Source: a virus
Virus record (IMG/VR): IMGVR_UViG_3300030430_000187
Span: 1-24,195 of that record
Strand: one strand, 5' to 3'
Length of the DNA: 24,195 nt
The notes beneath the pieces were generated by a model that had not been told where the DNA came from, did no database searches, and worked only from the letters and a program-made list of their open reading frames with translations. Positions 3,801-12,673 of the stretch are shown piece by piece (position 1 is the first letter of the stretch; each line of letters begins with the position of its first letter). The translations under genes were made by a program, and so were the position numbers.

Positions 3801-4174
3801 TGCAAATCACTTTTCCTGTCCCGCCAGTCCCAGCGTCCCGTCCCCGTGTAACTCGCTGGGGGGTTTACTACGGAAAGAAATACACTTCTTTTCGGAAAGA
3901 ACTCAAGGCAATACTCCCAGACCTACTGGCGGGCAGGGAAAGCTTTCCGGTCAAAGGCCCGATCTCAGTAAAGATTATCTTTCACTGCCATAAGCCTAAG
4001 ACTTCAAAACTCAACGAGCCTCGCGGCGACATTGACAACTACATCAAGGCCATCCTTGATTCGTGTAACGGTTTGGTCTGGGACGATGATGATCAGATCG
4101 TGAGAATCAATGCCTGTAAGTTGTTTGCAGACGGCTGCGATCCCAAGATCGAGATGTGGGTTGATGACAAATGA
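3800..4174 (+). CDS. rusA: RusA-like Holliday junction resolvase
   Basis: A 124-residue protein of RusA size. It carries the RusA active-site block: Asp77 and Asp79 in GDIDNYIK, Lys83, and Asp98 at the end of a WDDDD run. The spacing (Asp, +2, +6 Lys, +21 Asp) equals E. coli RusA D70/D72/K76/D91. The N-terminal PVPASRPRV segment is also typical of the family. RusA is a metal-dependent dimeric nuclease that cuts four-way junctions. It occupies the slot of the unrelated T7 gene 3 endonuclease I and would resolve recombination or replication intermediates before packaging. Its ATG overlaps the upstream stop (TGATG) with no clear Shine-Dalgarno, so translation is probably coupled. The 3' end overlaps the helicase start by 11 nt. 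Confidence 0.93.
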   Translation: MQITFPVPPVPASRPRVTRWGVYYGKKYTSFRKELKAILPDLLAGRESFPVKGPISVKIIFHCHKPKTSKLNEPRGDIDNYIKAILDSCNGLVWDDDDQIVRINACKLFADGCDPKIEMWVDDK

Positions 4175-5780
4175 ATCTGAATTTCTAAAGCACATACCCT
4201 GCGAGTCCTGCGGTTCATCTGATGGCAACTCGTTGTACAGCGATGGTCACACCTATTGCTTTGTGTGCGACACTTACAAGCCCGGTGACGGGCAGGAGGA
4301 TATTTTGACCAACGATCAGCCAAAGGGACTTGGCCTTGTAAAACATGAGACACGCCCGCTGAAGAAGAGGGGCATCAATGAAGAAACCTGTCGCAAGCTG
4401 CGGTACGGGATCGGTGAATATCAAGGCAACAATGTCCATGTCGCTGACTACTGCGACGAGCGTGGGCATGTGGTTGCCCAGAAGGTTCGCTTTGCTGACA
4501 AGAACTTTGTCATGCTTGGCGACTCCAAGAAAGCCGGTCTCTGGTGTCAACATCTTTGGAAAGATGGCGGTCGCAAAGTGATCGTCACCGAGGGGGAGAT
4601 TGACTGTTTGACCGTGAGTCAACTTCAGGGCAACAAATGGCCTGTCGTGTCTCTGCCATCAGGAGCCGCTGGTGCAAAGCGGGCCGTACAGAAATCAATC
4701 GAATGGCTTGAAAAGTTTGAAGAGGTTGTCTTCTGTTTTGACAATGACGATGCAGGACGAAAAGCCTCAGAGCAATGCGCCATGTTGATGTCCCCCGGTA
4801 AGGCCAAGGTTGTGACCCTCCCCCTGAAGGATGCAAGTGACATGATGGTCGCAGGCAAAAGCAAGGAGTTGATGGACTCCATCTGGCAGGCAAAGACCTT
4901 TCGACCTGATGGAATTGTGCCAGGTGACGAGCTGTGGGAGATCATTACTTCAAAGGATGACACGGTGTCTGCCCCGTACCCATACGACGGTATGAACGAG
5001 AAAACCGGAGGAATCCGAAAGAGAGAGCTTGTAACTTTTACTGCTGGAACCGGGATCGGTAAGTCTGCGTTCTGCCGAGAGATTGCTCATCACCTGTTAA
5101 CTATGGGCCATACCGTTGGTTACATCGCTTTGGAGGAGTCAGTAAAGCGTACGGCCCAAGGAATCCTCAGTATTGATCTAAACGAACCAGTCCACCGATG
5201 CGATGAGATTGATGAGAAGAAACTCAAAGATGCATTTAAGAAGACTCTCGGATCGGGACGATGTTACCTTTACGATCACTTCGGCTCAATCGATTGTGAC
5301 TCACTGCTGAGCCGAATCAAATACATGGCAGTGGGTCTTGGACTGGACTTTGTGATTCTCGATCACTTGTCCATCGTCGTGTCCGGCTTGGAGGGCGGCG
5401 ACGAACGTAGGACGATTGACCAAGCAATGACCCGTCTTCGTTCTTTGGTGGAGCAGACGGGTATTGGTATGGTGCTTGTATCGCACCTAAGGAGGCCAGA
5501 TGGCAAAGCTCATGAAGAAGGTGGACAAACCTCACTCTCGCAACTCAGGGGGAGTGCTGGTATTGCTCAATTGTCTGATATGGTTGTTGGTTTGGAGCGA
5601 GATCAGCAGGGCGAACATCCAAATATCACAACTGTCCGCATACTTAAAAACAGATGGAGTGGAGATACCGGAGAAGCCTGTTACGTTCAATATGACAAGG
5701 ACACCGGTAGACTCTCCGAAACCAGCAAAGATTTCTCCACAGTCGAAAGCACAGGAGGCTACGACGATGTGCCCTTCTGA
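4164..5780 (+). CDS. 4: Bifunctional DNA primase-helicase, T7 gp4-like
   Basis: A 538-residue replicative primase-helicase (T7 gp4A has 566). The N-terminal zinc finger has Cys13/Cys16/Cys32/Cys35. The TOPRIM primase site has Glu143 in TEGEID and Asp193/Asp195 in FDNDD, with spacings identical to T7 E157/D207/D209. The RecA-type helicase has Walker A GTGIGKS at 295-301 (Lys300) and Walker B VILDH with Asp400. Motifs SHLRRP, LRGSAGIAQLSD and LKNRWSGDTG follow. The C-terminus GGYDDVPF is acidic with a terminal Phe, like the T7 helicase tail that docks on gp5 polymerase. ATG 4164 gives the zinc finger its normal distance from the N-terminus; an in-frame start at 4110 would overlap RusA much more. 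The last 281 nt also contain an open second frame with its own ribosome-binding sites (see 5500-5766). Confidence 0.96.
   Translation: MTNESEFLKHIPCESCGSSDGNSLYSDGHTYCFVCDTYKPGDGQEDILTNDQPKGLGLVKHETRPLKKRGINEETCRKLRYGIGEYQGNNVHVADYCDERGHVVAQKVRFADKNFVMLGDSKKAGLWCQHLWKDGGRKVIVTEGEIDCLTVSQLQGNKWPVVSLPSGAAGAKRAVQKSIEWLEKFEEVVFCFDNDDAGRKASEQCAMLMSPGKAKVVTLPLKDASDMMVAGKSKELMDSIWQAKTFRPDGIVPGDELWEIITSKDDTVSAPYPYDGMNEKTGGIRKRELVTFTAGTGIGKSAFCREIAHHLLTMGHTVGYIALEESVKRTAQGILSIDLNEPVHRCDEIDEKKLKDAFKKTLGSGRCYLYDHFGSIDCDSLLSRIKYMAVGLGLDFVILDHLSIVVSGLEGGDERRTIDQAMTRLRSLVEQTGIGMVLVSHLRRPDGKAHEEGGQTSLSQLRGSAGIAQLSDMVVGLERDQQGEHPNITTVRILKNRWSGDTGEACYVQYDKDTGRLSETSKDFSTVESTGGYDDVPF
5488..5499 (+). promoter_or_regulatory. 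Perfect Shine-Dalgarno inside the helicase gene, before an alternative endolysin start
   Basis: TAAGGAGG at 5488-5495 precedes ATG 5500 by 4 nt (CCAG). It is made from the helicase codons for Leu-Arg-Arg in the SHLRRP motif. TAA 5488-5490 is also the in-frame stop that closes the +1 frame upstream, so ATG 5500 is the first possible start of that frame. Whether ribosomes use it is unproven; a spacing of 4 nt is slightly short. Confidence 0.4.
5500..5766 (+). other. Possible N-terminal export/anchor extension of the endolysin, nested in the helicase gene
   Basis: These 89 codons are in frame with the lysozyme-like gene and overlap the helicase in the +1 frame. The residues have the architecture of a secretion signal. 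There is a basic n-region (Lys3, Lys6, Lys7, Lys10, Arg14), a hydrophobic core GGVLVLLNCLIWLLVW at 17-32, and a polar SEISRA at 33-38 that could be a signal-peptidase site after Ala38. A Pro/Ser/Thr/Lys-rich linker then leads to the catalytic domain, which starts at Met90. If translated from 5500, the enzyme could be exported by Sec or act as a signal-anchor-release endolysin. The alternative is a chance open frame read across conserved helicase codons. The ribosome-binding site plus ordered signal features favour function, but nothing here proves it. Confidence 0.42.
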
Positions 5781-6174
5781 ACAAGAGTTGTTCTTTGATG
5801 CGATTCGATTGGTTGAGACCGGAGGTCACCCAGATCCCAACAATGCAGTTGGGGCCGCTGGTGAGCTGGGCGCATATCAAATAACCGAGCCTTATTGGTT
5901 GGACGCGGTTGAACACCGCCCAGAACTTCGACAGAACGGCGAGACTTTCGACAATGTTCGAGATCCTATCTATGCCAAGAAGATTGTCATGTCATACATT
6001 GACAGGTATGAGCCGGACAACTTTGAGATCGAGCATTGGGCACGCCTTCACAATTCAGGCCCACGTTGGAGAAGAAAGAAGCATCTGACTGAAGCGTATT
6101 GGTCGAAGGTTTTTGAGCATGTTGATAACTGGCAGCAAGACTATTGGGACAATTCAAGAGCGAGGGTCCAATGA
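5767..6174 (+). CDS. Endolysin-like muramidase resembling i-type (destabilase) lysozymes
   Basis: The conservative start ATG 5767 follows AGGAGG (5753-5758) by 8 nt and gives 135 residues. Motifs in order are AIRLVETGG with candidate catalytic Glu17, GELGAYQITEPYWLDA at 32-47, a VRDPIYA helix, YIDRYEP, and ARLHNSGP at 92-99 followed by YWSKV. This order (Glu near the start, YQI-x3-YW, then R-x-HNGGP) is what I know from i-type lysozymes, but the many cysteines of the animal enzymes are absent, as expected for a cytoplasm-made phage enzyme. It would cut peptidoglycan glycan strands at lysis. It stands between gp4- and gp5-like genes, near where T7 keeps its unrelated amidase gene 3.5. Its stop overlaps the polymerase start (ATGA). 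A longer form from 5500 is possible. Confidence 0.78.
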   Translation: MCPSEQELFFDAIRLVETGGHPDPNNAVGAAGELGAYQITEPYWLDAVEHRPELRQNGETFDNVRDPIYAKKIVMSYIDRYEPDNFEIEHWARLHNSGPRWRRKKHLTEAYWSKVFEHVDNWQQDYWDNSRARVQ

Positions 6175-7922
6175 ACTTTGCGTTTGACCTCGAAACCAAT
6201 GCAATCGACAACTTCCAAAGTCTTGAGGGTCTGAAAGAAATTCACTGCTTGGTTCTCCAATGTTTAGACAGCGGGGAACAATGGAGGTACTCAAGCAACG
6301 CAGGCAACCTCAAAGAGGGACTCAATCGCCTCAGGCTTGCGGACCTCATCGTGGGTCACAACATCATCTCGTTTGATTTGAGGGTCATCAAGAAGGTCTA
6401 CCCAAAGTGGACACCGACTGGTGCGATCAGAGACACCTTGGTCATGGCCCGAGCAATTCATCCTGATCAACGTGAGCTTGATTTTGGCTTGATGAAAAAG
6501 GGGTATCCCAAAACTCTAATTGGCTCTCACTCACTGAAGGCTTGGGGATATCGGATCGGCGCACTCAAGGGCGACTTCAATGAGGAGACCGACTGGGAAA
6601 ACTGGTCCATCGAGATGGAGGATTACTGTGCCCAGGACACTGCGGTTACGGCCCAGCTTTACTCCAAGTTGATGGAGCAAGATCCGGAAGTTGACATGCT
6701 CAACTTGGAGCAAGAGTTCCAAGCCGTCTTGGTCAATCAGGAGGCATACGGATTCCCGTTTGATACTCACAAGGCTGAACGCCTGTACTCCACTTTGTCT
6801 GCCGAGAGAGACGATCTTGAGAAGAAACTGAAGCAGATGATTCCTGACAAAGTGGTTGAAAGAGTCAGTGAGAAGACGGGCCGTAAACTCAAGCCCAAGG
6901 TCATTGAGTTCAACCCTGCTTCTCGCCAAATGATTGCTTCAGCCTTGGTCGAACACTATGGCTGGAAGCCTGTAGATTTCACCCCGAGTGGTCACCCCAA
7001 GGTTGATGAATCAATCTTGACTCAACTTGACTTCGAGATCGTAGAACCGATTGTCAAATACTTGACGATCCAGAAAAGAGTGGGGCAGATTGCGGAAGGC
7101 AATGAGGCTTGGCTCAAACTAGTAACAAACAAAGGGAGGATTCATGGCAGAGTTAACGGTTGTGGAACTGTCACGGGACGGTGTACCCATTCAAAACCAA
7201 ACATCGCGCAAGTACCGGCTTCTGGTTCATTATGGGGACCAGAATGTAGAAGTCTTTTTGTTGCACCGGGGGGATGGACATTGGTGGGTGCGGACGCGTC
7301 GGGACTTGAACTCCGATGTCTCGCTCACTACATGCACAGATGGGATGATGGAGCTTATGCAGAAGAAATTGTTTCGGGAGACATCCATACCGCTAACCAA
7401 GAGGCCGCTGGTCTACCAACTAGGCCAGATGCAAAGAAGTTTATCTACGCGTTTCTTTATGGTGCGGGCCATGAAAAGATTGGTTCAATTGTTGGTGGCG
7501 GCATGGCGGAAGGCAAGAAGTTACAGGCAAAGTTCTTGAAGTCTCTTCCGGCTCTCGCGAGTCTACGGACGGCTATTGAGAACGGTCTGAAGCATCGGGG
7601 ACATTTGATTGGACTAGATGGTCGCCGGTTGCCGATCCGATCCAAACACTCTGCACTGAATACTTTGCTACAAAGTGCAGGGGCAATCATTATGAAGCAG
7701 GCCACGGTGGATCTGCACAGAAAACTATGGGCCAAGGGCATCGAGTTCCATCAGGTCGCTCATATTCACGACGAAGTGCAACTAGTAGTTAGAGAGGACG
7801 ATAAGGATGTCGCAGGCTCAATCGCGGTTGATTCGATCAGGGAAGCGGGACTGCCCTACAACTTCAAATGCCCCCTCGATGGCGAGTACCGTTCTGGTCG
7901 GTCATGGGCTGAGACGCATTGA
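6171..7922 (+). CDS. 5: DNA polymerase, family A, T7 gp5-like with 3'-5' exonuclease
   Basis: A 583-residue replicative polymerase (T7 gp5 has 704). The proofreading exonuclease is complete: Asp6 and Glu8 in FDLETN, VGHNIISFD, and DYCAQDTAV. Motif A is DASGLELRCLAHYM (Asp375). Motif B is AKKFIYAFLYGAG with Lys422 and Tyr426 (T7 K522/Y526; the Tyr predicts good use of dideoxynucleotides). Motif C is IHDEVQ with Asp534 and Glu535. In T7 about 75 residues of thioredoxin-binding domain lie between the thumb and the conserved FNPSSR segment. Here only about 22 residues (225-246) separate them, so the enzyme probably does not recruit host thioredoxin. ATG 6171 overlaps the endolysin stop, with GAGGG 4 nt upstream. 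The next gene begins 4 nt after the stop. Confidence 0.96.
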   Translation: MNFAFDLETNAIDNFQSLEGLKEIHCLVLQCLDSGEQWRYSSNAGNLKEGLNRLRLADLIVGHNIISFDLRVIKKVYPKWTPTGAIRDTLVMARAIHPDQRELDFGLMKKGYPKTLIGSHSLKAWGYRIGALKGDFNEETDWENWSIEMEDYCAQDTAVTAQLYSKLMEQDPEVDMLNLEQEFQAVLVNQEAYGFPFDTHKAERLYSTLSAERDDLEKKLKQMIPDKVVERVSEKTGRKLKPKVIEFNPASRQMIASALVEHYGWKPVDFTPSGHPKVDESILTQLDFEIVEPIVKYLTIQKRVGQIAEGNEAWLKLVTNKGRIHGRVNGCGTVTGRCTHSKPNIAQVPASGSLWGPECRSLFVAPGGWTLVGADASGLELRCLAHYMHRWDDGAYAEEIVSGDIHTANQEAAGLPTRPDAKKFIYAFLYGAGHEKIGSIVGGGMAEGKKLQAKFLKSLPALASLRTAIENGLKHRGHLIGLDGRRLPIRSKHSALNTLLQSAGAIIMKQATVDLHRKLWAKGIEFHQVAHIHDEVQLVVREDDKDVAGSIAVDSIREAGLPYNFKCPLDGEYRSGRSWAETH

Positions 7923-11476: not shown

Positions 11477-12203
11477 TCGAGTTCAAATGACAACTGAAGA
11501 TGGCGGAATGCCTGATGAATTGATGACCAACGCCCCTGAGGTCAATGAAGAGGCGGTGGCAGAAGAACGCCCTGAGTGGCTCCCAGAAAAGTTTGAGTCT
11601 GCTTCTGATTTGGCAAAGGCTTATTCTGAGCTGGAGTCTCGGATGGGCAGCGTCGATAAAAATGAGCAAGCCGATTTAGAAGCTGACGTTGACGCTTCGG
11701 ATCGTGAAGCCTTGACGATGGATGACATTCGTCCGTTCTCTGAAGAGTTTGCCGAAAAGGGCGAACTTGGTGAGGAGTCCTACCAAAAGCTGGATGAACT
11801 TGGATTTCCCAGGGAGTTGGTTGACAACTACATCCAAGGGATGGCTGCATACTCACAGCAGCAGTCCACTCAAATGATGGCGGCGGTGGGTGGAGAAGAG
11901 TCATACAATCAGATGACTGACTGGGCATCGAAGAATCTCAGCGAGGCTGAGATCAACGCTTACAACTCAATTATGGATAGCGGAGATCCCTCGCAGATTG
12001 ATATCGCTGTCCGTGGCATGCACGCTCGTTTCAAAGCAAACGACACGGAACCAAGCCTTATCCAAGGAGATACTGTCAATGTCAATAACGGCTTTAATTC
12101 GACGGCTGAAGTCACTGCTGCGATCAACGATCCTCGGTATCGCAAAGATCCCGCTTACCGTAAAGAGGTTCAGCGTAAAATTCAGATGTCGAAAGTGCTG
12201 TGA
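11469..12203 (+). CDS. 9: Capsid assembly scaffolding protein, T7 gp9-like
   Basis: A 244-residue acidic protein between portal and capsid. The N-terminal half is rich in Glu/Asp. It contains the family-typical RPEWLPEKFESASDLAKAY and later NYIQGMAAYSQQQ and LSEAEINAYNSIM. The C-terminus, DPRYRKDPAYRKEVQRKI, is basic and would be the helix that binds the capsid shell. The protein would direct procapsid assembly around the portal and then leave. AAGAGGAA lies 10 nt upstream of the ATG, inside the end of the portal gene. The stop overlaps the next start (TGATG). Confidence 0.93.
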   Translation: MADRVQMTTEDGGMPDELMTNAPEVNEEAVAEERPEWLPEKFESASDLAKAYSELESRMGSVDKNEQADLEADVDASDREALTMDDIRPFSEEFAEKGELGEESYQKLDELGFPRELVDNYIQGMAAYSQQQSTQMMAAVGGEESYNQMTDWASKNLSEAEINAYNSIMDSGDPSQIDIAVRGMHARFKANDTEPSLIQGDTVNVNNGFNSTAEVTAAINDPRYRKDPAYRKEVQRKIQMSKVL

Positions 12204-12673
12204 TGAATAAGACAGCACTTGGTATCGGGGCCGTATGGGTGGCCCTTGGAGCTGGGATCTACTTCATGTCTGGCTGCGCCCTTGACGATCTGATTCAAGT
12301 CAGCGTCCCCAAGGGTGTCCAAACGGCAACCCAAACTGCATCCACAATCAAACTTTCTGATGCTGAATACACTTGGACTGAATGGCAGAACTTTGTTGAT
12401 GTAAATACCGCAAAGTTCCAAGAGTCCATCGACGATGCCAACAAGGTCTGGGGCGTTGCCTCCAGCGTTGTGAACATCGGTGCTGACTCTGCTGCTGGTC
12501 CACTCTCTCAGCTTCCCGGCGGAGCGGCCCTAGTTTCGGGCCTGTCTCTTGCCACTGGTCTCTTCCTTCGTCGCCCCGGCGATGCCAAGCGTGAGGCCAA
12601 GGAAAAAGAACGATCATTCAATGCCGGTTTGGCTCAGGGCAAGGCTCTGGTCGAAACGGTTACCAACTCTTGA
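12203..12673 (+). CDS. Putative lipoprotein/membrane protein between scaffold and capsid, unknown function
   Basis: From ATG 12203 this gives 156 residues; a GTG at 12200 is adjacent and in frame. Lys3 is followed by a hydrophobic stretch (4-22) ending MSGC, so Cys25 lies in a fair match to a lipobox for lipid attachment and signal peptidase II. Asp residues follow shortly after. The middle is soluble and has a helical segment around AKFQESIDDANKVWG. A second hydrophobic stretch, GGAALVSGLSLATGLFL at 106-122, is followed by strongly basic RRPGDAKREAKEKER. Two membrane elements around a small domain could indicate a holin- or spanin-like lysis factor, a superinfection-exclusion lipoprotein, or a membrane-contacting virion component. 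T7 has no equivalent here, and I cannot choose among these. Confidence 0.72.
   Translation: MNKTALGIGAVWVALGAGIYFMSGCALDDLIQVSVPKGVQTATQTASTIKLSDAEYTWTEWQNFVDVNTAKFQESIDDANKVWGVASSVVNIGADSAAGPLSQLPGGAALVSGLSLATGLFLRRPGDAKREAKEKERSFNAGLAQGKALVETVTNS

Follow-up and report, generated by a model that had tools for sequence, protein, structure and literature searches.

Can the export signal of a phage endolysin be written into the codons of a replicative helicase? The question is raised by a 24,195-base virus record, analysed over its whole length and called here the window, in which an ORF with a lysozyme-like domain begins inside a primase-helicase gene. In our estimate there is a probability of about 0.85 that the ORF at positions 5500-6174 is a real endolysin gene, which would encode an i-type lysozyme with its own membrane-targeting segment in the +1 frame of the helicase.

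Gene organization of the window

The window has a T7-like gene order: RNA polymerase, ssDNA-binding protein, RusA, primase-helicase, ORF 5500-6174, DNA polymerase, exonuclease, connector, and virion genes; the features from the helicase to the DNA polymerase described below all lie on the plus strand. The T7 gp4-like primase-helicase occupies positions 4164-5780 (phrog_239, E 2e-190; DnaB_C and Helic-prim_T7_N domains). Its longest ORF extends from 4110, but relatives carry a stop just 5' of the position equivalent to 4152, so that Met at 4164 is the likelier start. The lysozyme ORF (5500-6174, 224 aa, Destabilase PF05497), which is kept at full length in relatives, overlaps the helicase gene, whose stop ends at 5780, by its first 281 nt in the +1 frame, and is followed by a T7-like DNA polymerase at 6171-7922 (DNA_pol_A, E 2e-43; start inferred), the likely ATG of which overlaps the lysozyme stop (ATGA, 6171-6174).

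The signals for translation had been placed correctly by an earlier note on this DNA. The frame is open from 5491 through the stop at 6174, and the Shine-Dalgarno sequence TAAGGAGG at 5488-5495, embedded in the helicase codons for Leu-Arg-Arg, precedes ATG 5500 by a 4-nt spacer; it does not vary among the six distinct window-clade loci, and its anti-SD duplex energy is -12.0 kcal/mol. A second site, AGGAGG at 5753-5758 (duplex -10.3 kcal/mol), is found 8 nt ahead of an internal ATG at 5767, and together these (5753-5769) may give a short form of the enzyme in this clade. The 89 residues between the two starts also read in the order described in that note, basic, then hydrophobic, then a polar linker rich in Pro, Ser and Lys. 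The hydrophobic core, GGVLVLLNCLIWLLVW (residues 17-32, 5548-5595), is a predicted membrane helix or export segment by its KD17 value and by the AlphaFold model, in which residues 16-48 form a helix that holds the core. The polar segment spans residues 33-89 (5596-5766), and predicted disorder covers residues 43-88, read as a flexible linker on account of the very low model confidence there (pLDDT <50), as is expected of such a linker.

The lysozyme domain

The lysozyme assignment in the earlier note is borne out by profile and structure comparisons. The ORF matches Destabilase PF05497 with 32.6 bits (gathering score 26.2), and a profile search retrieves leech and clam i-type lysozymes with E-values from 9e-18 to 1e-12. 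The catalytic domain (about residues 94-215, 5779-6144), delimited by the AlphaFold model, the PDB fold match and invariant columns, is modelled with pLDDT of about 90-98; the best PDB match to the model is leech destabilase 8bbu (TMt 0.76, E 6e-5), with clam lysozymes next.

Glu106 (5815-5817) is invariant across the 32 aligned sequences and, judged by its position, is the putative catalytic Glu. The loop of the second acid has GDGG in most relatives and GAAGE or GADGE in the window clade, so that the window clade, with GAAGE standing for GDGG, seems to lack the catalytic Asp expected of an i-type lysozyme. In this loop of the window (residues 118-122, 5851-5865), Glu122 may serve as a replacement, or the protein may be a single-Glu enzyme.

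Conservation of the overlap

The window and its relatives from IMG/VR make up 32 distinct loci, here called carriers, with T7-like helicases 47-89% identical to that of the window; the more distant carriers were retrieved by a scan with the catalytic domain. In all 32, the lysozyme ORF starts within the helicase gene at offset +1, has no stop in the overlap, and keeps the hydrophobic core; the overlap measures 248-281 nt, except for 164 nt in locus L061. The full 224-aa ORF is found at 75-80% identity in six further loci on distinct contigs, five of them distinct at the ORF. Alignment of relatives, the check proposed in the earlier note, thus finds the +1 frame, the start, the ribosome site and the hydrophobic core all retained.

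In the larger carrier group the start is always the ATG formed by the His-Glu codons (CAT GAA) of the conserved HEE motif, and in the window clade, which has a stronger ribosome site, it is an ATG four codons before the HEE position; the HEE ATG itself is absent in two members of this clade. Of the 32 carriers, 29 have CAT as the HEE His codon, which gives the ATG, and the other three (L001, L002 and L061) use another start; among non-carriers, 13 of 26 His codons are CAT. In L061 (3818-4315) the lysozyme start is displaced downstream by about 100 nt, and the hydrophobic stretch comes from another part of the helicase gene, where the export segment has apparently been re-made.

Among isolated phages, the lysozyme of the window has no match, and distant destabilases are matched only by its relatives. 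Scans of genome contigs with narrow patterns gave no bacterial homologues.

Selection on the shifted frame

To obtain a null distribution, synonymous codons were shuffled within each helicase, so that both the protein and the codon usage were kept. The +1 frame stayed open in 8% of shuffles for the window and in 0-16% across relatives. The hydrophobicity of the real sequence was reached in 0.1% of shuffles for the window (core KD17 2.19, against 0.57 +/- 0.51 in the null), in at most 1.4% for 25 of the 32 sequences, and in less than 10% for all; the weaker cases are L058, L060, L074, L075 and L089, where the null reaches the observed value in 4-9% of shuffles. Along eight non-overlapping paths of the tree, random synonymous drift would leave all frames open with a probability of 9e-7, and the retention of hydrophobicity along eight such paths gives a Fisher p of 2e-4. 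When the same shuffle test is applied to lysozyme-free helicases, almost all give z close to zero, and all have stops except T7, where the +1 frame is occupied by gene 4.2; HTVC031P has z of 2, yet eight stops.

The synonymous-site comparison suggested in the earlier note points the same way. Synonymous conservation relative to codon usage in carriers is 1.44 at 5500-5600, 1.26 over the remaining overlap and 1.10 upstream, versus 0.98, 1.01 and 1.06, respectively, in non-carriers. Both frames are under selection in the overlap: the helicase frame is conserved, and the +1 frame is open, hydrophobic and synonymously constrained only in carriers. As established by sequence analysis, selection on the free (synonymous) positions of the helicase keeps the shifted frame open and hydrophobic. 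The proposal of the earlier note that an export or anchor segment evolved over helicase codons is supported by the prediction of such a segment, and by its excess hydrophobicity and synonymous constraint in carriers.

A conserved RNA element, considered as a possible source of the synonymous conservation, would leave both the avoidance of stops and the excess hydrophobicity unexplained. Charge bias was rejected as a target of selection: the difference in charge, N minus C, matches the shuffle null, which indicates that the charge of the n-region is inherited from the helicase (HEE) codons. By these tests, hydrophobicity is the trait kept by selection, and n-region charge is not separately selected.

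Another nested ORF with a good ribosome site lies at 7144-7539 in the DNA polymerase gene, and the earlier note had cited it as a caution that the lysozyme overlap might be fortuitous. In relatives of about 84% identity it has ACG in place of the ATG and has lost the ribosome site, so that it is most likely a chance ORF and serves as a negative control. The caution does not extend to the lysozyme, for which a chance nested ORF is ruled out by the codon-shuffle nulls, by the carrier-free controls, and by contrast with the failed ORF at 7144.

Export, anchoring or release

The predicted course of events is as follows. A ribosome would start at ATG 5500 on a transcript of the replication region, and the positive n-region with the hydrophobic helix would route the lysozyme to the Sec pathway. 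The protein would then be held in the inner membrane, its enzyme domain kept in the periplasm on the flexible linker; late in infection, release or an event of the holin type would free it to degrade peptidoglycan. N-terminal export segments occur also in the relatives that are not nested, as a hydrophobic helix in L076 and L090 and as a lipoprotein-like signal in L086; the lysozymes of the first two (L076:3863-4339 and L090:3884-4336) lie just 5' of a gene that by eye resembles a terminase small subunit. The N-in/C-out prediction is weakened in part of the larger clade (L063, L081, L084 and L089), where the charge delta is 0 or -1 and the residues that follow the core carry as much positive charge as the n-region.

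The fate of the helix can be read in more than one way: it may be a permanent anchor, may be released, or may be cut off as a signal peptide. In a true signal-arrest-release (SAR) endolysin, with which the earlier note had compared this N-terminus, collapse of the proton-motive force lets the helix out of the membrane, and the enzyme is activated. The basic n-region and single hydrophobic helix ahead of a muramidase-fold domain fit such a scheme, as does the overall hydrophobicity, which is the same in P1 Lyz (KD17 2.24, versus 2.19 in the window); moreover, an enzyme made early from the replication region would presumably need to be held inactive. The composition of the helix does not fit. 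SAR domains are weakly hydrophobic and rich in Gly and Ala (PMC12642591), whereas Gly, Ala, Ser and Thr together make up 6% of the core in the window and 6-24% in its clade, compared with 47% in P1 Lyz; KD17 rises to 3.1 in some relatives, and no conserved Cys, the absence of which also counts against SAR, is found in the hydrophobic helix of the aligned relatives. The core is too rich in Leu and Val, and also in Trp, to earn the classic SAR label, and we regard this mode of release as possible but doubtful.

A Sec signal peptide might instead be cut by signal peptidase I, after the S-R-A that closes the polar segment or at A-W following the core, to give a soluble periplasmic lysozyme. The cultured phage Calle_1, which has a destabilase lysozyme, carries a textbook cleavable signal, MRLFILLSVVLFSVESQA-A, and Ala-x-Ala or Ser-x-Ala is found close to the end of the core in several carriers. 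The sites in question are poorly kept, however: SRA is replaced by SKV in L006, and the residue ahead of the conserved Trp is Asp in L080 and L085 and Gly in L069 and L071. Uncontrolled early release would also risk premature lysis, and cleavage appears, on balance, rather unlikely.

The internal start

The earlier note had proposed that one gene makes two products, the long exported form and a short cytoplasmic, holin-dependent form initiated at ATG 5767. The part of this proposal that concerns the signals holds within the window clade, where the ribosome site and ATG are kept in 6/6 loci with SD energies of -9.5 to -10.3 kcal/mol, and similar internal sites are seen in L056-L059 and L078. 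It does not hold more widely, as the ATG is absent at this position in eight distinct relatives (L060, L062, L064, L065, L067, L069, L071 and L072), which makes the long exported form the general product. Besides, the helicase itself supplies the ATG, through the Asp-Asp-Val codons of its acidic tail, and GGAGG, through its Gly-Gly codons; both could therefore be incidental. A short form from ATG 5767 is possibly clade-specific at most, and a two-product gene seems improbable to us.

That the true gene begins at 5767, and that the open frame upstream is a by-product of helicase codons, is very improbable: the HEEG and LER motifs do on their own yield a +1 peptide that is basic and mildly hydrophobic (null KD17 0.3-1.4), but the open frame, the ATG, the hydrophobic excess and the synonymous conservation are found only alongside the lysozyme, and in the same eight relatives there is no later ATG ahead of the domain.

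Amidase and lysis partners

The T7-type amidase was absent from every carrier locus searched, some of which do not extend far enough to include the amidase slot. It is present in 11 non-carrier loci from IMG/VR and in 7 of 8 isolates examined, the search model having been built from those same seven isolates. Several lysozyme-free loci likewise have no T7-type amidase; these include L014-L016, the group without the lysozyme that is sister to the main carrier clade, in which group an endolysin was looked for and not found. The simplest reading is that the nested gene would be an endolysin that reaches the periplasm by itself.

Candidate partner genes in relatives are a small XhlA-like membrane protein, which is under the Pfam cut-off, and a weak match to Rz-like spanins. 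The window is a fragment, and its own holin and spanins may therefore lie outside it. Between scaffold-like and capsid-like genes, at 12200-12673, it encodes a protein of 157 aa that has a hydrophobic stretch at its N-terminus and a lipobox-like Cys, and for which no family match was found; the equivalent slot in the relative L100 is filled by a 62-aa holin-like and an 86-aa lipoprotein-like protein.

T7 gene 4.2 and the origin of the overlap

Gene 4.2 of T7, also present in T3, K1F and their relatives (homologues of gp4.2 are listed in PMC4925675), resembles the nested lysozyme gene in that it has its start at the equivalent HEE codons of the helicase, in the +1 frame, is hydrophobic, and extends beyond the helicase stop. 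Unlike the lysozyme, its product has about 100-115 aa and no lysozyme domain, and T7 keeps a separate amidase, gp3.5. For T7 gene 4.2 (L045:4406-4711), the codon shuffle gives P(open) of 0.015 and a hydrophobicity z of 2.0. Sequences like it occur in 697 phage records, often without annotation.

In the helicase tree the carriers fall into two groups, and a test with the overlap columns excluded does not reject one origin for the nested gene (p-AU 0.30). There is similarity to phrog_5140, a family related to gene 4.2, at an E-value of 0.013, a match for which shared helicase constraint may account. Apart from T7, every lysozyme-free helicase sampled has stops in the +1 frame, so that common descent of gene 4.2 and the lysozyme N-terminus is no more than a possibility. 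It may tentatively be suggested that in T7-family helicases the +1 frame from HEEG to LER is pre-adapted to encode a basic n-region and membrane helix, and has repeatedly been a cradle of membrane proteins, giving gene 4.2 in one branch and, elsewhere, the export segment of an i-type lysozyme whose domain was fused behind a 4.2-like ORF. If this doubtful scenario were true, gene 4.2 would encode a membrane or lysis-related protein, which gives a testable guess about its role.

Comparison with known systems

The overlap is, on the evidence of sequence, real and well conserved, and exported endolysins and overlapping lysis genes are already known. If our reading is right, selection acts on a single stretch of DNA for the sake of two unrelated proteins, the codon choice of a core replication enzyme being shaped by the export segment of an enzyme that would end the infection, and an endolysin has a route to gain export with no added genome length. 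It suggests, too, that the uncultured T7-like carriers may lyse their hosts unlike T7, by a membrane-targeted i-type lysozyme and not a cytoplasmic amidase. Gene callers averse to long overlaps may trim off such export signals.

Destabilases of Cellulophaga phage Calle_1 and of uncultured phages are like the nested lysozyme in having an i-type domain and an N-terminal export signal, but in Calle_1 the lysozyme is annotated as a normal stand-alone gene. BFVD holds an entry named Destabilase, and the destabilase domain is among the rare domains of predicted phage lysins (PMC13237592).

The SAR endolysins P1 Lyz, R21 of phage 21 and gp61 of N4 have an N-terminal membrane helix of their own, as is predicted for the nested lysozyme, and differ from it in the composition of the core, as compared here for P1 Lyz. 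We know of no SAR endolysin that overlaps a replication gene, and no description of an endolysin-helicase overlap was found in the open-access literature searched. Lysis functions encoded in the second frame of another gene are represented by the Rz/Rz1 spanins, E of microviruses and sgl of leviviruses (PMC6139136, PMC7693330). Those are small spanins or single-gene lysis proteins, whereas here it is the targeting segment of an endolysin that appears to be overprinted on a replicative helicase.
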